NCBI GenBank assembly: GCA_022705745.1
Contig: JAKJDW010000007.1
Coordinates: forward strand, 1 to 45,696
Reading direction: 5' to 3'
DNA from: Patescibacteria group bacterium
Lineage (GTDB): Bacteria > Patescibacteriota > Gracilibacteria > Absconditabacterales > Absconditicoccaceae
DNA: 45,696 bases
A program made the position numbers and the translations under genes. A model generated the notes under the pieces. The model ran no database searches, had not been told where the DNA came from, and saw nothing but the letters and a program-made list of their open reading frames with translations. Positions 14,172-40,821 of the stretch are shown one piece after another. Positions within the stretch are counted from its first letter, which is position 1, and the number at the start of each line of letters is the position of its first letter.

Positions 14172-14355
14172 AAGAGTTTAAAGTTCAAAGTTTATAAAGT
14201 TACAAGTTATAAAGTTACAAGTCAAAAGTTACTTATACGATAGTTTTACAAAAATTGTTATAAAAAATTGTCTTGAAAAAGCTAAGTAATTTATTATAAG
14301 GATGTTCGATATTGCAATTTTTTTTGCATTTTTTATTATTTTATTTTTTGTGAAG

Positions 14356-16464
14356 ATGGCACAAGTGATTCCTTTGGATAGGGTGAGAAACATTGGTATT
14401 ATGGCACATATAGATGCTGGTAAAACCACTTTTTCGGAAAGAGTCCTTTATTATACAGGTAAAAAACATAAAGTTTGAGAAACTCATGATGGAGCAGCTG
14501 ATATGGATTGGATGGATCAAGAAAAAGAGAGATGAATTACGATCACATCAGCGGCGACTACCTGTTTTTGGAAAGACTATCACATAAATGTTATAGATAC
14601 TCCAGGTCATGTAGATTTTACTGTAGAAGTAGAAAGATCTCTGAGGGTTTTAGATTGAGCTGTGGCAGTTTTTGATGCTTCTCAAGGAGTAGAGCCTCAA
14701 TCAGAAACTGTTCGAAGACAGGCAGACAAATATTCTGTTCCTAGAATGGCTTTCATAAATAAGATGGACAAAATGGGGGCAGATTTTTTTATGGCTGTGG
14801 ATAGCATTAAATCAAAACTTACAGATAAATGAGTTGTATGTCAAATCCCTTATGGTGCTGCGGATGATTTCAAATGAATAATAGATTTATTAGATATGAA
14901 ATTGTATACATTTGAATGAGAGATGGGAGTAAATGTTGTAGAACATGAAATCCCTGCAGAGTTACAAGCTAAAGCTGAAGAATATAGAGAAAAAATGATA
15001 GATGCTGCTACTATGTTTGATGATGAATTGGCAGATAAGTTTTTGGAATGATGAGATATCCCAAAAGAATTAATCATAAAAGCTATTAGAAAAGGTACAG
15101 TAAGCAACGAATTATATCCAATATTATGTGGGACAGCATTAAGAAATACATGAGTTCAATTAGCATTAGATTATGTTACTAGATACTTGCCTAGTCCTTT
15201 GGATAGATGAACTATTTATGGAATAGATCCAGACAATGAAGAGAAAAAACTTGAAAGACACGCTTCTCCTACAGAGCCAGTATCTGCGTTAGCGTTCAAA
15301 ATTGCATCAGATCCATTTGTTGGTACTTTGACTTTTGTTAGAGTTTATTCCGGAACTATTAAATCTGGGGATTCTTTGCTAAATCCTATTACAGGTCAAA
15401 AGGAAAGAGTGGGGAGATTGCTTTTGATGCACGCAAACAAAAGAGAAGAAATTTCAGAAATATGAGCATGACATATTTGTGCGTTCTTAGGATTAAAAGA
15501 TACAAGAACAGGAAATACTTTATGTGATATCAAAAACCCTATAATACTTGAAAAAATAGAATTCCCAGAACCTGTTATCAACATTTCTATTGAACCAAAA
15601 ACCAAAGATGATCAAGAAAGATTATGATTAGCTTTGGCAAAACTTATGTATGAAGATCCTACATTTAGAGCTCATTCTGATGAGGAAAGTGCTCAAACAA
15701 TTATTTCTGGTATGTGAGAATTACATTTGGATATTATAGTAGATAGACTAAAAAGAGAACATAAAGTAGAAGTAAATACAGGAAAACCACAAGTAGCATA
15801 TAGAGAGACAATTATGGCTGATAGTGTAGAATGAGAATGAGTATTCAAAAGACAAACTGGAGGTAGAGGACAATATGGACATGTATTACTTAGACTTGAG
15901 AAACTTCAAGATAAAAACTACGAATTCGTATCAGAAATTAAATGATGAGTGATTCCAAACGAATTTATACCAGCTATTGATAAGGGAGCAAAAGAAACTA
16001 TGGCTCAAGGTATTTTAGCCTGATATCCTATCATAAATATTAGAGTAGTTCCTTATTTTGGATCTTATCATGATGTGGATTCTTCAGAAATAGCGTTTAA
16101 AATTGCGACATTTAGAGCCTTCAAAGCTGCATTTACAAAACCTGAAGCACAAGCTTGTATTTTGGAACCGATAATGAATGTAGAAGTAACAACTCCAGAA
16201 GATTATGTTGGAGATGTGATGGGAGATTTATCTTCTAGAAGAGGTATGATTCAATGACAAGAACCAAGAGGTAATGCAACCGTAATCAAAGCTAAGGTTC
16301 CTTTGTCAGAAATGTTTGGTTATGCAACTGATCTTAGATCAAATACTCAGGGTAGAGCGAGCTTCTCTATGGAATTTGGTAGCTATGAGAGAGTTCCAGA
16401 AAATATTTCAAAACAAATTATAGATGAGAGATCTGGGAAAGTTAAATCAATGGATGAGGAGTAG
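14356..16464 (+). CDS. fusA: Translation elongation factor G
   Basis: EF-G is the GTPase that drives ribosomal translocation and helps recycling. The 702-residue product has G1 AHIDAGKTT (residues 17-25), G2 around [12 protein letters not shown]3 DTPGHVD, G4 NKMDKMGAD, and the domain III-V motifs [29 protein letters not shown] and EPIMNVEV. About 20 glycines are TGA, several at invariant positions, which is the strongest proof of the recoding in the window. The ATG at 14356 matches the usual EF-G start. The frame is also open to an upstream ATG at 14302 that would add 18 hydrophobic residues. A GC hairpin and a terminator follow. Confidence 0.98.
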
Positions 16465-22762: not shown

Positions 22763-25633
22763 TTATTTTGCTCTCATCAACATCAACATTACTCGACCTC
22801 TAAGTTCTTGGGCTTTGGGATTCTCTATTTTTGTCATAATTCAATCTTTTTTTAGTGCTTCCAAGTGCTTTTCGTAATATATATTATCGTTATTATATTT
22901 AGCTCATCGTAAAGCTCTGGATAATACTGTTCCAAATTCTGCTCTGCTCACTATTCCATTTGGATTGAACTCTTTGATTCAAACTCCCATTAAGCCCAAT
23001 TGACAAGCCTTTGTTACTCCGTTGTCATAATCTTTATTTAAGTCACTAGATATATCTGAAAATTCACATTTTTTATCAAGGTCTGGTTTTTGTAAGTTAA
23101 GGCTTAATACATAATTGGCTACCATTTTAGCCATTGCTATTCTAGTTAAATTACCGTGTAAATCTGCTTTATCTATGGTTGGCATAGTGGTTATCTGATT
23201 CATATAAGCAAAAATATATGCTTTTTGTAGTTCAATAGAAAAGTCTGTGTTTAAAAGTGATTTTACTGGACTACTATTTTTATTTTCTTCTATAAATTTT
23301 TTTATTTGAGATTCTATACTTTCTTCTTCTAGTTTATTCGCTAACAGGTCTAGTTGTTGGTTCCCAGATTCAACTATTCCAGTATTAATTGGAGGAGTGG
23401 GCAAAGTTCATCAAGCACCTCAACCTCATCACCCTCATCACCCTCATCCACCTCCTCATGAAGAAGGTTTTGACCTAGTAGTGATTTGAAATGTGGCACT
23501 TCCACTTCATACTGTCAGAGTAGATTCAAGTGTAGTAGAATAATTGGGACTTGAATTTAGTCTGATGGATAAGTTATCTCCATTTTCTACTCCAGTACTC
23601 AATCATGAAACTAAAATATCATTTTTTATCAATTCTCACGCAGTTATACTAGCGGTAAAAACATGTGATGTTTCCAATCATGATATAATAATTATGTTGG
23701 ATGTATAAAGTTTATTTAGTTCAGCATTTGTAATTCCTGTAAATGAAAACGGTTCTGGGTCGGATTTTTTATTTCTTGTAGTGATAGTAAAAGTAGCTTG
23801 ATTTGTTCAATAGCTTAAAGTCATACTATTGGAAACATTAAATTCATTTGGACTAGTCAGTCTAAGTTGAATAGTATCTCAAGAATTAATTGTTCCGCTT
23901 GCTGTTTCCCATCATGATGAATTAATTGCATATTCTCCAGTATCAATAGAAATTGTTATTTCACCAGTAGCAAAAAGGGTAACTATATTAGAAGTATAGA
24001 GAGTGTTTGGTTCTGCATTTAGTATAGAATTAAAACCTATAAAAAATCGTCATGTTTCACTATATTCTCAAGTATTGTTTTTTAGATCAAAAGCTTTAAC
24101 TCTCCAGTAATAAGTATTTTGTTCTAAATTAGATATTGTAATCCCAGTAGTATCCAAACTTGTTCAAGTGATTATATTTTGGAAATCAATTCATGTAGAT
24201 AATTCAAAATAGTATCAACTTAGTCATACACCTTTATCGGTAGCTTCTGACCAAAGAAATTGCATATCAGTTCAAAAAATAATTTCTCCACTTAAAGGGA
24301 ATATCAGTGTAGGAGCAGTAGGTCAAAAATTATCGAGAGCATAGAGTGTTTGGTATACATTAATTCTTGTTCCCGCAACAGTCTTTCAGCTAAGATTGTC
24401 CAAAAAGTCTCAACTATTTATAATTATATTTTTTATTTCTTGATAAGACAGATCTGGTCTAAAACTTCGTGCTAATGATGCTAATCCAACTACATGAGGT
24501 GTCGCCATAGAAGTTCAGCTGTCATATCAATATGCGTCATTACCTATAGTACTCAATATATTTGAACCAGGAGCTCAAACATCTACCGAAATTGCACCAT
24601 AATTTGAATACGAAGCCAACTCCTCACCACTATTGGTAGCTGCTACACAAATAATATTATCTAAATCGTAACTACAAGGATATGTGGTTGAATTTGAATT
24701 CCCATCATTATTGCGTCCATTATTTCAAGCTGCTGCAATAAATAATCATGAAAATCCTTTAATAGCATCAAGAATTCCATAATCATTATAACCAGTTTTG
24801 TAATATCGGAATCAAAAACTAGCATTGATAATAGTAGCTCAATTTTGCTGAGCAAAATCTATTCATTTAATGATAGTGGTGTCATATAACTCTATTCCAG
24901 ATCATGCTCTAATTGCCATAAGTGAAGCATTAGGACTAACTCAAACAATTCAAGTATTATTATTCATAATAGCTCATATCGTGCCAGCTACATGGGTTCC
25001 ATGTGTATCTCCTGTTTTGGGAGCTGGGTCTCTATCATTCTCTATATAATCATATCAATGTATACAATCTCATAAAGCAGTTCATTCTCCACTAATACAT
25101 GCGCTACCATCTCGCATATTACCACTAAGATCAGGATGATTATAAGAAATTCCATTATCAATAATAGCAATTATGGTTCATGTTCAATCAGATCATCAGC
25201 TAAATATATTCATACCAGACAACCATGATATTGCAGACAATCATCGTAATTTTGTAAAATCAGGATCATTTGGAGTAGAATAAGTATGATAGATATAGTT
25301 GGGTTGTGCATATTCTACATTTGGATCCTTATTGAGATTATCCACCATTTGTTCTACTGTTTCTTCTCATTGGATTTTCATAACTGCAATATTATAATTT
25401 TCAATATTATCTGTAATTTCCATATTTTTATTTTGAGCGAAAATTTTAATAATATTTTGTCATCTTTTGGTGGAAATATCAGCTTGAGAAGTTTTGTATT
25501 TTACAAGGACTTCTCCTGGGACATATTTGGGTGATACGGTATGTTGTGTGTTTTGTGCTATTACAGTAGAAAAAAATATCAGTATCAAAACAGGAATAAC
25601 TAGAAAAGATTTTAGGAAAATGTTTTTTTTCAT
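22763..25633 (-). CDS. Secreted subtilisin-like serine protease with C-terminal SLH-like module
   Basis: This 956-residue protein has a signal peptide (MKKNIFLKSFLVIPVLILIF). A propeptide-like segment follows (YVPGEVLVKYK). The S8 catalytic domain has Asp in IIAIIDNGI (about 158), His in HGTHVAGTI (about 214) and Ser in SGTSMATPHV (about 373). Beta-rich repeats come next: one fibronectin-like (YYFELSTG, TYYWRVKAFD) and others with LYTSNIV/LYTSNII. A linker of 14 consecutive Gly codons (about 727-740) leads to the C-terminal module from about 825 (LTRIAMAKMVANYVL, NGVTKACQLGLMGVG, FNPNGIVSRAEFGTVLSRAL). That module is shared with the surface protein at 33722-35761 and resembles an SLH wall-anchoring domain. 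Confidence 0.93.
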
Positions 25634-30120: not shown

Positions 30121-30209
30121 TGTCTTCAGTCTTAAAGTTTGTAAAATATATGTTACTTAACTTACAAACTTTACAAACTTTACAAACTTGATGAACTCAT
30201 TTACTAAGT

Positions 30210-30280
30210 AGGGGCATGGTGTAATGGTAACACAACGGTCTTCGGAACCGTCACTGTGGGTTCGATTCCCCCTGTCCCTG
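30210..30280 (+). tRNA. tRNA-Arg (UCG)
   Basis: Acceptor arms aggggca (30210-30216) and tgtccct (30273-30279) pair with one G-T. The D-arm is in tggtgtaatggtaacac. The anticodon stem acggt/accgt encloses loop cttcgga with anticodon TCG, reading CGA (Arg). The T-loop is ttcgatt. One T-stem pair (T-C) appears mismatched. The discriminator is G and CCA is not encoded. Confidence 0.9.
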
Positions 30281-30308
30281 ATTTGAAAAACTAAAAACAT
30301 CAAAATAG

Positions 30309-33721: not shown

Positions 33722-35761
33722 ATGAAAACATTTAAAAAACTTTTTGCTTATTCAGCGATTTTCGCTTTGTTTGCAATAGTGGTACCTATTTTTGCTAATG
33801 CTATTTCATACGATACGGAATTGACCGAAGCATATGCGTATGCAAAAAGCAAATGAATTACCACCATGAGTAATATTAATAGTGCAAACATGTACGGTAG
33901 TTTGACAAGAATAGCGATGGCCAAAATGGTAGCCAACTATGTTCTTGATTTAAAATTACAAGAAAGAGATACAAGTAAACAATGTACTTTCTCGGATGTG
34001 CCTGCTAGTTTGGATCTTGCATACGGTAATGGTGTGACAAAAGCATGTCAACTAGGGCTTATGGGAGTCGGGATTACGGACTTCAACCCAAACGGAATCG
34101 TAACCAGAGCTGAATTTGGAACGGTTTTGTCCAGAGCTTTGTGGGGGGACGAGAATAATGGTGGAGAACCGTATTACAAAAAACATCTTCAAGCTTTGAA
34201 AGATAACAGAATTATGATACAAACCAATGATCCTGGGAGAAGGGAAGTGAGGGGATATGTAATGCTTATGATGATGAGGGCTGATGAAAAATATAGTTCT
34301 GTTGTTGCTACGGGCTGTACTGCTGAAGAATTGCTTACTTGTCTTTTGTCTACTGGGGATTACCAAAAATGTATAGCTAATTGTAGTGGTGATACGACTC
34401 CTGTTCTTTCTGGTAAAGTTGTAATAAGTCGTCTTGATTCTGCTGGACTTCAAACTATTCCTGGGAATGCACAAAATGTAAATGTAGGAACTATCAAAAT
34501 TACTGCAGAAAACAATAAAGTTAAAGTAAATTCTCTTACATTCAAAGCAAATAATATTACAGGAGATATTGATAGTCTTGATAATATTTATGTAGCTAAT
34601 GATAGAATACTATCTTCTGTTCAGAGTTTTAATCCATCCACAAAAGAAGCTAGGCTTACATTTTCTCCTGCATTGATCTTATCTGCTGGGAAATCGGAAA
34701 CATTGAATGTCTATGTAAATATGGCCCCAAGAGATGATACTCCTCCTGATTCAAGATATAGTTTTAGTATAAGTAATCTTGTTGCTGATAGTCCAAAATC
34801 TGGGATCCCACTGGATTTAGGTACTATCAAAACTAGTTCTGATCTTGTAAGTGAGGTAGAATATAGTGTAGTTGCTGGAAGTACTTCCAATCAGATTGCT
34901 TGAAAAACAAACCAATCAATCGTCAAAGTTCAGTTGAAACTTGGTAATACTGGTGCTATAATCAAGAAAGTAATTCTTACAAAAAGTACAGCAGAAAATC
35001 AGAATTTTACTTGAGAAGCTTTTTATGATATTTTTGCTAATATAAAAGCCTATCACAGTGGTAACAGGGTTGCTACGGTAGGTATTGCAGAAAATGACCT
35101 TATTATTTCCAATCTTAATATAAGTGGAGATGCTAATGAAATTATAGAACTTGAACTGAAATGAGATATTATCTATGCTGGGAAAAAAACATCAGGTGCA
35201 TTTGTTGTGGATGTAAACGGAACGAACATAATTGATGGTCCTAGTAGATATGGTGCTGTAGTCAAAGCTGGATATGAGTATGTTTCCAATCCTTTTGATG
35301 TTGATGGACTCGATCTTGAGATAAAAAATGCTATGACTGGAAATCTGACAGTTTCTCCTGGCGATAATGATGTGGTGTTGTACAAAGCCACTATTACTTC
35401 CGCTGTAGATCTTGATGTGCTGGAATATATTCTAGATGCTGGAGTTAATATTGATACTTACGGTGGTTTTAAACTGAATAGAATTGAATTGTATGTAAAT
35501 GATTCTTCGGAATATATTAATATCGCTGAGTTTACGGGAGATACGACTCCTAAATTCTATCAAGGGAATGATAAATTCTTTCTTTATGCAGACCAGCCCG
35601 TTACTATCAAAGTGTTGGGAAGTTTTGCATCTACCGCTAAACCACAAGATTTCACATTCACATTTGGTATTACTAAAGTTAAAGATTTGCTAAATAATGG
35701 GACAATTGTTGGAAGTCCAACGATTAAAAGAGCTACCTGAAAAACTATATCGGTAAAATAA
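33722..35761 (+). CDS. Secreted SLH-like module surface protein, candidate S-layer protein
   Basis: This 679-residue protein has a signal peptide (MKTFKKLFAYSAIFALFA, cleavage near ANA). The next 180 residues form the module shared with the S8 protease: LTRIAMAKMVANYVL, TFSDVPASLDLAYG, NGVTKACQLGLMGVG, FNPNGIVTRAEFGTVLSRAL and YVMLMMMRA, with YPxAxxRAE-like features of SLH domains. The remainder is Ser/Thr/Asp-rich and beta-strand-like, without enzyme motifs, as in S-layer or pilus-like surface proteins. Only about five glycines are TGA; a 345-codon stretch has none, though it has many GGN glycines. That bias suggests strong translational selection. A CxxxxxxxC pair near 196-220 could form a disulfide. 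Confidence 0.85.
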
Positions 35762-39537: not shown

Positions 39538-40821
39538 CTATATTTGTGCGACTTTGAATACTTTTTTTCCTTTTCTTAACAAGAAAATTCAGTTTATACT
39601 ATCAGATTTTGTTAGAATTTTTTGAATATCATCTATTTTTTCTTCATTGCAAAATATCGCTCATGCTTGAATCATTTTTTTAGCTTCTCAGTTTGATTCA
39701 GTAAGTCATGACTGAGTACAAAGATCTAATATTTTTCGTTCGTCTCCTTTTAATTTAGTGCCACCAGTAGCATCTTTTAGAGCCAAAATTTCTTCTTGAT
39801 CTAATCATTTAATTAAATTTATTTTGTCTTCACTTCCAAATAATATTTGAGTGATTTTTTCTACTTCTTGTACAGCTTTTTTCCCGAATAGAACTTCCAC
39901 TACCCAAGATGCTAATTCTTTTTGTCCGTATCTAGATGCTGGATCTTGTTCATGTTTTTTGACAATTTCATCTATTTCTTCTAAAGATTTTAGTGAAAAT
40001 ACTTTCAATAACTTTTCAACTAAAGAATCGTCTGAATTCAAAAAGAATTGATAAACGAAATAAGGACTATTTTTGTTTTTATCTACCCAAACAGCATTCC
40101 CAGCTGACTTTCCATATTTGGCTCATGTAGCATCGGTAATTAAAGGTATTGTAAGACAATAAGAGGTTTCTCATAGTTTTTTGGATATTAAATCCATTCA
40201 TGTAGTTACATTTCATCGTTGGTCTGATCATCATAATTGTAGTTTTACTCCATATTTGCTAAATAGACTAAAAAAGTCGTATCCTTGGATTAGCATATAG
40301 CTCATTTCAGCATATGTGATAGATTGATCAGGATCTTCGATTCTTTTTTTTACAGATTCTTTGTTGATCATATAATTTATAGTGATATATTTCCCAACTT
40401 CCCTAAGAAACTGTAAATAATCCATTCATTTAAAAAAATCATAGTTATTTACCATTTCGTAGTTGAAATCTATATTGTAGTTCTGTTTTATATTGTCCAA
40501 AAAACTTGTTAATTGATTATAGATACAATTTTGATTGTGTCTCAATTGTTCTTCAGATAAAAAATTTCTTTCTTCACTTCTACCGCTAGGATCTCAGATC
40601 ATACCAGTTGCTCATCATACTAAGAAATAACATTTGTTCCCGTATTTCATTAAATGTACTGCTGCCATCACGGAAAACATGTTTCCTATTTGTAGACTAT
40701 CAGCACTAGGATCAAATCAAATATAAAAACTTTGACCTCATTTGTTGTATAGATCAAAAAGTTTTTCATCACTAAATTGATAGATGAGTCCACGGTTTTC
40801 TCGTTCTTGTCTTAAATCCAT
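39538..40821 (-). CDS. tyrS: Tyrosyl-tRNA synthetase
   Basis: TyrRS charges tRNA-Tyr. The 427-residue class I enzyme has FYIGFDPSADSLQIGN, in which LQIGN is the HIGH-box equivalent (near 46-50), FLVGGATGMIGDPSGR (about 75-90), the tyrosine-specificity region YDFFSLFSKYGVKLQLGGSDQ with NVTTGMDLI, and KYGKSAGNAVW as the KMSKS equivalent (near 235). The C-terminal S4-like RNA-binding part includes SGLTESNGEAKKMIQAGAI. The length is normal. The start at 40821 gives the expected N-terminus (MDLRQERENRGLIYQ). Confidence 0.96.

Follow-up and report, generated by a model that had tools for sequence, protein, structure and literature searches.

A derived SLH trimer with one predicted binding groove is shared by a subtilisin-family protease and a probable S-layer protein in Absconditicoccaceae

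The DNA analyzed here, to which we refer as the window, is a stretch of 45,696 nucleotides from a Patescibacteria group bacterium of the family Absconditicoccaceae (assembly GCA_022705745.1, contig JAKJDW010000007.1). Its minus strand carries at positions 22763..25633 the gene for P1, a secreted protease of the subtilisin family (S8) that bears an SLH trimer at its C-terminus and comprises 956 amino acids when TGA is read as Gly and CGA as Trp. A signal peptide, a prodomain, the S8 domain, a beta-rich spacer, a poly-glycine linker and the anchor follow each other in this protein. The prodomain resembles Fervidolysin_NPro (25298..25540, minus strand; residues 32-112; PF22148, 47.6 bits), the catalytic domain is a Peptidase_S8 domain (24410..25186, minus strand; residues 150-408; PF00082, 169.9 bits), and the linker, recognized in the sequence at approximately 23399..23461 (minus strand), leads from the beta-rich middle part to the anchor module (22769..23242, minus strand; residues 798-955). 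The catalytic residues D159, H211 and S375 and the oxyanion residue N304 are all present, as is typical of the S8 family, and the protease looks active to judge from these positions. At E<=1e-6 the genome yields no S8 match besides P1; NCBIfam recovered for it generic subtilases only, below their cut-offs. TGA specifies 51 of its 99 Gly residues, which equals the genome average. The second gene of interest, on the plus strand (33722..35761), encodes P2, a probable S-layer protein of 679 amino acids. Its signal peptide (33722..33802, plus strand; residues 1-27), putatively cleaved after ANA, is followed by an N-terminal SLH trimer (33809..34282, plus strand; residues 30-187; found by Pfam and BLASTP) and a body of about 490 residues. 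With TGA translated as Gly (code 25), neither reading frame is interrupted.

The anchor modules of the two proteins are strikingly alike. Residues 798-955 of P1 and 30-187 of P2 align by BLASTP (table 25 translations) without a gap and with 96 of 158 positions identical (61%; E=1e-57), and reading CGA as Trp raises the number of identities to 97. An initial sequence-only reading of this DNA had reported long near-identical motifs common to the two proteins, and LTRIAMAKMVANYVL and NGVTKACQLGLMGVG are indeed exact matches in both. It had likewise placed the module at opposite ends of the two proteins, and this holds: the module stops one residue short of the P1 C-terminus and begins immediately past the signal peptide of P2. 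Its placement in the C-terminal part of P1 was right, while the proposed start at about residue 825 has to be moved to about residue 798. The three repeats of the P1 module, as delimited with the aid of Pfam, BLASTP, AF2 and Foldseek, span residues ~798-845 (SLH1), ~857-910 (SLH2) and ~917-955 (SLH3).

CGA codons occur in aromatic columns of the module alignment, and they also occupy the Trp position of EF-G, of TyrS (GGSDQWGN) and of SufB, in motifs that we take to be the canonical ones of these proteins. Regions of the window that support this reading are 14353-16464, 39538-40821 and 2-1273. Judged by these alignments, the genome reads CGA as Trp, besides TGA as Gly, and CGG is probably read as Trp as well. 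The assignment of both CGA and CGG to Trp has been described for Absconditabacteria (Shulgina and Eddy; PMC8629427). As a consequence, table 25 translations, including those underlying the sequence-only reading, are slightly wrong at CGA codons. A tRNA with the anticodon tcg (positions 30209-30281), called as Arg by ARAGORN, is a candidate Trp tRNA.

The shared module is a genuine SLH trimer and not a different domain, as follows from Pfam, from a profile search of the PDB and from structure prediction. The Pfam SLH model matches P1 with 23.7 bits against a cut-off of 20.8, and P2 with 20.6 bits for the whole protein, just below that cut-off, and 25.1 bits in the search of the genome; in both proteins it recognizes the middle repeat, SLH2, alone. 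When a module profile built from 31 sequences was compared to all PDB chains, its sole match was the SLH part of the S-layer protein Sap. The AF2 model of the P1 module, which carries Arg for Trp at positions 909 and 947 since the table 25 translation misreads CGA, has a mean pLDDT of 96.6 and a pTM of 0.91 and displays three helix-loop-helix units. Foldseek ranks 1-15 against the PDB are SLH trimers of SpaA and Sap (TMq 0.68-0.76), and the next match has E=2.4; the model thus has the three-repeat pronged spindle fold of SLH trimers. The Arg at position 43 (the TRAE motif) is kept in all three repeats, with 83/83 in SLH1, 80/84 in SLH2 and 80/83 in SLH3. An unrelated enzymatic domain was considered as the identity of the module and ruled out, since SLH trimers are the only significant PDB matches. 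Flavin monooxygenases, retrieved when P2 alone was compared to the PDB by phmmer, are chance matches (E ~0.2-0.6).

For SLH trimers, a functional binding groove is predicted if three successive repeats contribute, in this order, Gly29, Trp13 and Arg43 to one site (Blackler et al.; PMC6081394). Across 84 modules, groove 2 is preserved: its Gly in SLH2 is found in 84/84, the aromatic residue at the Trp13 position of SLH3 in 77/84 (with CGA read as Trp) and the Arg of SLH1 in 83/83; in P1 these residues are G883, Y919 and R831. The loop that holds this Gly is shorter than GIIxG by one residue. Grooves 1 and 3 have lost both Gly29 and Trp13, in that Gly29 is missing from SLH1 and SLH3 and Trp13 is replaced by Glu or Asp in SLH1 and SLH2 of the 84 modules. 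As a control we inspected 17 canonical SLH proteins with three repeats, drawn from the class but from families other than the present one, and both grooves are kept in them: for groove 1, Gly and Trp are each present in 16/17 and Arg in 15/17, and for groove 2, Gly is present in 17/17 and Trp and Arg each in 16/17. Within our sample, the groove loss is specific to this bacterial family. The Gly29/Trp13 rule for two or three working grooves leaves groove 2 as the one intact groove of the module. Since fold and homology are those of SLH trimers even though grooves 1 and 3 are lost, we regard the module as a derived variant rather than a non-member, one that is predicted from its residues to keep a single working groove.

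Mining of the genome revealed at least nine copies of the module. They are found on P1, on P2, on a 952-amino-acid P2 paralogue (contig C44), on a 1072-amino-acid leucine-rich-repeat protein (C3), and at the contig ends of C55, C66, C12, C5 and C16. The sequence-only reading had proposed a common cell-surface anchor that attaches both a structural protein and a processing protease. An SLH trimer borne by many proteins of the genome, among them a probable S-layer protein and an S8 protease, agrees with the common anchor and with its two kinds of bearers. It had also named two outcomes that would speak against this idea, and neither came about: no enzymatic domain was matched, and the module recurs elsewhere in the genome, on seven or more other proteins or protein fragments. 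Its suggestion of a lineage-specific relative of SLH was apt as to the lineage-specific form, while the module proved to be a true member of the SLH trimers instead of merely SLH-like. In five contigs the sequence breaks off within or close to an SLH module, and the copies on C5 and C16 are about 96% identical over 277 bases; the genome therefore probably holds more module proteins than the assembly shows.

The module is present in 34 of the 36 genomes of the family that we sampled, with a maximum of 34 copies, whereas 9 of 23 genomes from other families gave weak matches only. Named family members include Candidate division SR1 RAAC1_SR1_1 (CP006913.1) and Candidatus Gracilibacteria MAGs. The Pfam SLH model yields the opposite pattern, with few matches in this family and 4-66 per genome in the others, and it largely misses the module: G016 has 0 Pfam SLH matches at 1e-4 versus 8 module matches, and G032 has 3 versus 34. 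On proteins that are not of the S-layer type, the module is C-terminal in nearly all cases and mostly lies 1-30 residues from the protein end; G004 and G016 also encode shorter proteins with an N-terminal module. In a tree of the modules, read without support values, protein types are mixed, and the P1 copy clusters with those of its own genome (from the C3 leucine-rich-repeat protein and the two S-layer proteins) and not with those of other S8 proteases. This grouping by genome suggests that modules move or are homogenized within genomes. Two proteins of the genome carry SLH domains that Pfam does recognize, a 475-amino-acid protein with an esterase-like C-terminal part (strong match; L028:3815-5242) and a 598-amino-acid protein with several apparent repeats (weak match; L027:4202-5998); canonical and derived SLH forms may thus coexist in it. 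A sequence filed under a Candidatus Epulonipiscium MAG (JAAYPH010000130.1) is 99.15% identical over 3415 bases to contig C3 of our genome and for this reason is probably misbinned.

P2 shares 47% identity over 609 residues with its 952-amino-acid paralogue on C44, and the N-terminal start MKTFKKLFAYSAIFAL is identical in both. The twelve S-layer-type ORFs begin with a signal peptide of the MKxxKKLFA type and continue with the module; the complete ones are about 680-1200 residues long, and two run off contig ends. The N-terminal module belongs to one long probable S-layer protein per genome, and in the genome studied here to P2 and the C44 paralogue. NCBIfam gave no name for P2, and the full-length AF2 model (pLDDT 45.6, from a five-sequence alignment) contains no confident fold for the body. 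The codon usage of these genes is distinctive. TGA encodes 10 of 119 Gly residues (8%) in the S-layer-type genes of this genome, including 5 of 53 in P2, as opposed to 698 of 1231 (57%) in neighboring ORFs (p=1e-26; loci: window 33722-35761 and L020:1575-4433). It was likewise avoided at p<0.05 in the S-layer genes of 9 of the 10 other genomes tested. EF-Tu has the same low share (3/36 Gly; 8%), and EF-G is intermediate (20/56). This avoidance, as in EF-Tu, points to high expression of the S-layer-type genes, as one would expect for an S-layer protein, and avoidance of reassigned codons may generally mark highly expressed genes in this code. By analogy, P2 would be an S-layer-type protein that assembles into an S-layer.

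Two proteins of the genome score above the cut-off for PF04230 (polysaccharide pyruvyl transferase), and one of the corresponding genes lies 3.4 kb from the S-layer gene on C44. A csaB-like gene near the S-layer gene was found in eight genomes (G000, the genome studied here, and G014, G016, G020, G022, G027, G031 and G033), which are related, so that the counts are not independent. The order csaB-like gene, comEC, S-layer gene on one strand occurs in G000, G014, G016, G020, G031 and G033, and G027 has the same order, interrupted by further genes. The csaB-like gene of G022 lies within about 3.3 kb and is divergent, and the stretch shows no comEC. G001 has comEC near its S-layer gene and no csaB-like gene close by, and contig ends truncate the S-layer loci of G023 and G035. 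The assignment of comEC is confirmed by Pfam in G000 and elsewhere relies on the resemblance of the N-terminus. This gene order with comEC differs from the one known in Bacillus. Besides comEC, the C44 S-layer locus (L109:4075-17505) encodes a secreted protein of 1443 amino acids in which a staphylococcal-nuclease and a lamin-tail domain are combined, and murG is nearby; the locus is possibly a surface DNA-digestion and uptake cluster.

The csaB-like protein belongs to PF04230 and reaches 43.5 bits against the CsaB equivalog model TIGR03609, whose cut-off is 213.1. Given a score so far below that of the equivalog, the csaB-like proteins could pyruvylate something other than the wall glycan. 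Critical residues of CsaB are R148 and R306-x-H308 (PMC10435577), and motifs resembling them (RD/RE..S and RLH) are present in the csaB-like proteins in an alignment that leaves out the P. alvei sequence. A UDP-GlcNAc 2-epimerase (MnaA, PF02350) had no match in the 94% complete genome, and the usual ManNAc acceptor may consequently not be made. A glycosyltransferase of the TagA/WecG type (PF03808) is present on C22 (62 bits).

Around the computed homology, fold, copy number, distribution, residue loss in grooves 1 and 3 and pyruvyltransferase synteny, we propose that the module is a wall anchor, an SLH trimer whose predicted groove 2 serves a probable pyruvylated sugar, on the S-layer-type protein P2 and the protease P1, and we hold this to be likely. 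The trimer would hold secreted proteins on the cell wall non-covalently, with a single pocket to which SLH1 contributes its Arg, SLH2 its Gly and SLH3 its aromatic residue. Most likely, the ligand would be a terminal sugar that the csaB-like enzyme has ketal-pyruvylated. P2 and the longer C44 paralogue would be abundant S-layer-type proteins anchored at their N-termini, and P1 would be anchored C-terminally with its poly-glycine linker allowing the catalytic part to reach outward. The preserved groove 2, the family-wide use of the module, the nearby csaB-like gene and the avoidance of TGA together make anchoring to a pyruvylated glycan the best explanation. The diverged csaB-like enzyme, the missing PF02350 match for ManNAc synthesis and the shortened SLH2 loop would also fit a trimer that binds a non-pyruvylated ligand, such as another anionic glycan or decorated peptidoglycan as in diderm Firmicutes. 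We judge this rather unlikely, since the conserved Arg of SLH1, Gly of SLH2 and aromatic position of SLH3 are those that contact the pyruvylated sugar in SpaA (PMC6081394), and since eight genomes have a pyruvyltransferase-like gene close to the S-layer gene.

The role of P1 is a separate matter. The sequence-only reading took it for an S-layer processing protease, which the common anchor would bring to its substrate so that it cuts during assembly. Consistent with this idea, P1 and P2 lie 8 kb apart in the window, and two genomes, G016 and G033, encode an S8 protease that likewise carries this anchor at its C-terminus directly upstream of the S-layer gene, between it and comEC. However, these two genomes represent one genus and hence one case, G001 and G014 possess the S-layer gene and the anchor and have no S8 match, and of the further S8 loci that we examined in this family, most are without the module. 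The anchor is also found on the leucine-rich-repeat protein and many unrelated proteins, so that sharing it says little about the substrate, and we consider a processing role improbable. An S8 protease as part of a universal S-layer locus was rejected, as it is present in that locus in G016 and G033 only. We give about even chances to P1 being an exported scavenging or host-attack protease of the cell surface that is tied to the S-layer by the common anchor only. The lineage includes the predator Vampirococcus with its numerous peptidases (PMC8080830), the presence of S8 proteases varies between genomes, and the poly-glycine linker and the beta-rich spacer suit an outward reach; the S8 gene that adjoins the S-layer gene in one genus argues against it. 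We favor a general surface protease over one dedicated to S-layer processing.

Absconditabacteria-type cells live on or against other bacteria, and our analysis names for them a specific anchor along with a probable S-layer protein, a candidate enzyme for the ligand that is encoded close by, and three candidate residues. In the open full-text literature on SLH and S-layers in Gracilibacteria, CPR and Absconditabacteria, which mostly lacks subscription papers and is weak evidence to that extent, we found no description of this anchor or of surface-protein attachment in Absconditabacteria. With its lost grooves, the module is a natural variant on which the published rule for SLH binding sites can be tested, the module profile offers a remedy for annotation where the Pfam SLH model misses most copies, and the avoidance of reassigned codons provides a marker for abundant proteins. 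A bolder reading, which we consider less likely than not, is that the family evolved a wall-anchoring system of its own, in which the SLH trimer with its single groove and a pyruvyltransferase encoded near the S-layer gene diverged together, serve a pyruvylated non-ManNAc sugar and dress host-dependent cells with up to ~30 different surface proteins.

The CsaB/SLH system, in which SLH proteins are anchored to a pyruvylated secondary cell wall polymer, likewise combines SLH proteins with a PF04230 protein and a TagA/WecG-type transferase, and the proximity of the pyruvyltransferase-like and S-layer genes is a further resemblance; it differs from the present case in that the enzyme here scores far below the CsaB equivalog cut-off and a UDP-GlcNAc 2-epimerase is not matched. 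Cwp84 of C. difficile is an S-layer-processing cysteine protease with CWB2 repeats. Like it and the surface-anchored subtilases of Gram-positive bacteria, P1 is a secreted protease on a wall-binding element, here a trimer also present on the S-layer protein; unlike Cwp84, proteases of the P1 type are optional in the family, and processing by P1 would be an analogy only. The closest structural counterparts are the trimers of SpaA from Paenibacillus alvei (PDB 6CWN and others) and Sap from Bacillus anthracis (3PYW, 6BT4), which have the same fold at ~13-20% identity in structural alignments. The module shares with them the three helix-loop-helix repeats, the Arg at the TRAE position of every repeat, the Gly/aromatic/Arg set of groove 2 and the terminal position on secreted proteins. 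It departs from them through the absence of Gly29 from SLH1 and SLH3, the exchange of Trp13 for Glu or Asp in SLH1 and SLH2 and an SLH2 loop that is one residue shorter, and it is predicted to possess one groove where SpaA and Sap have two or three.
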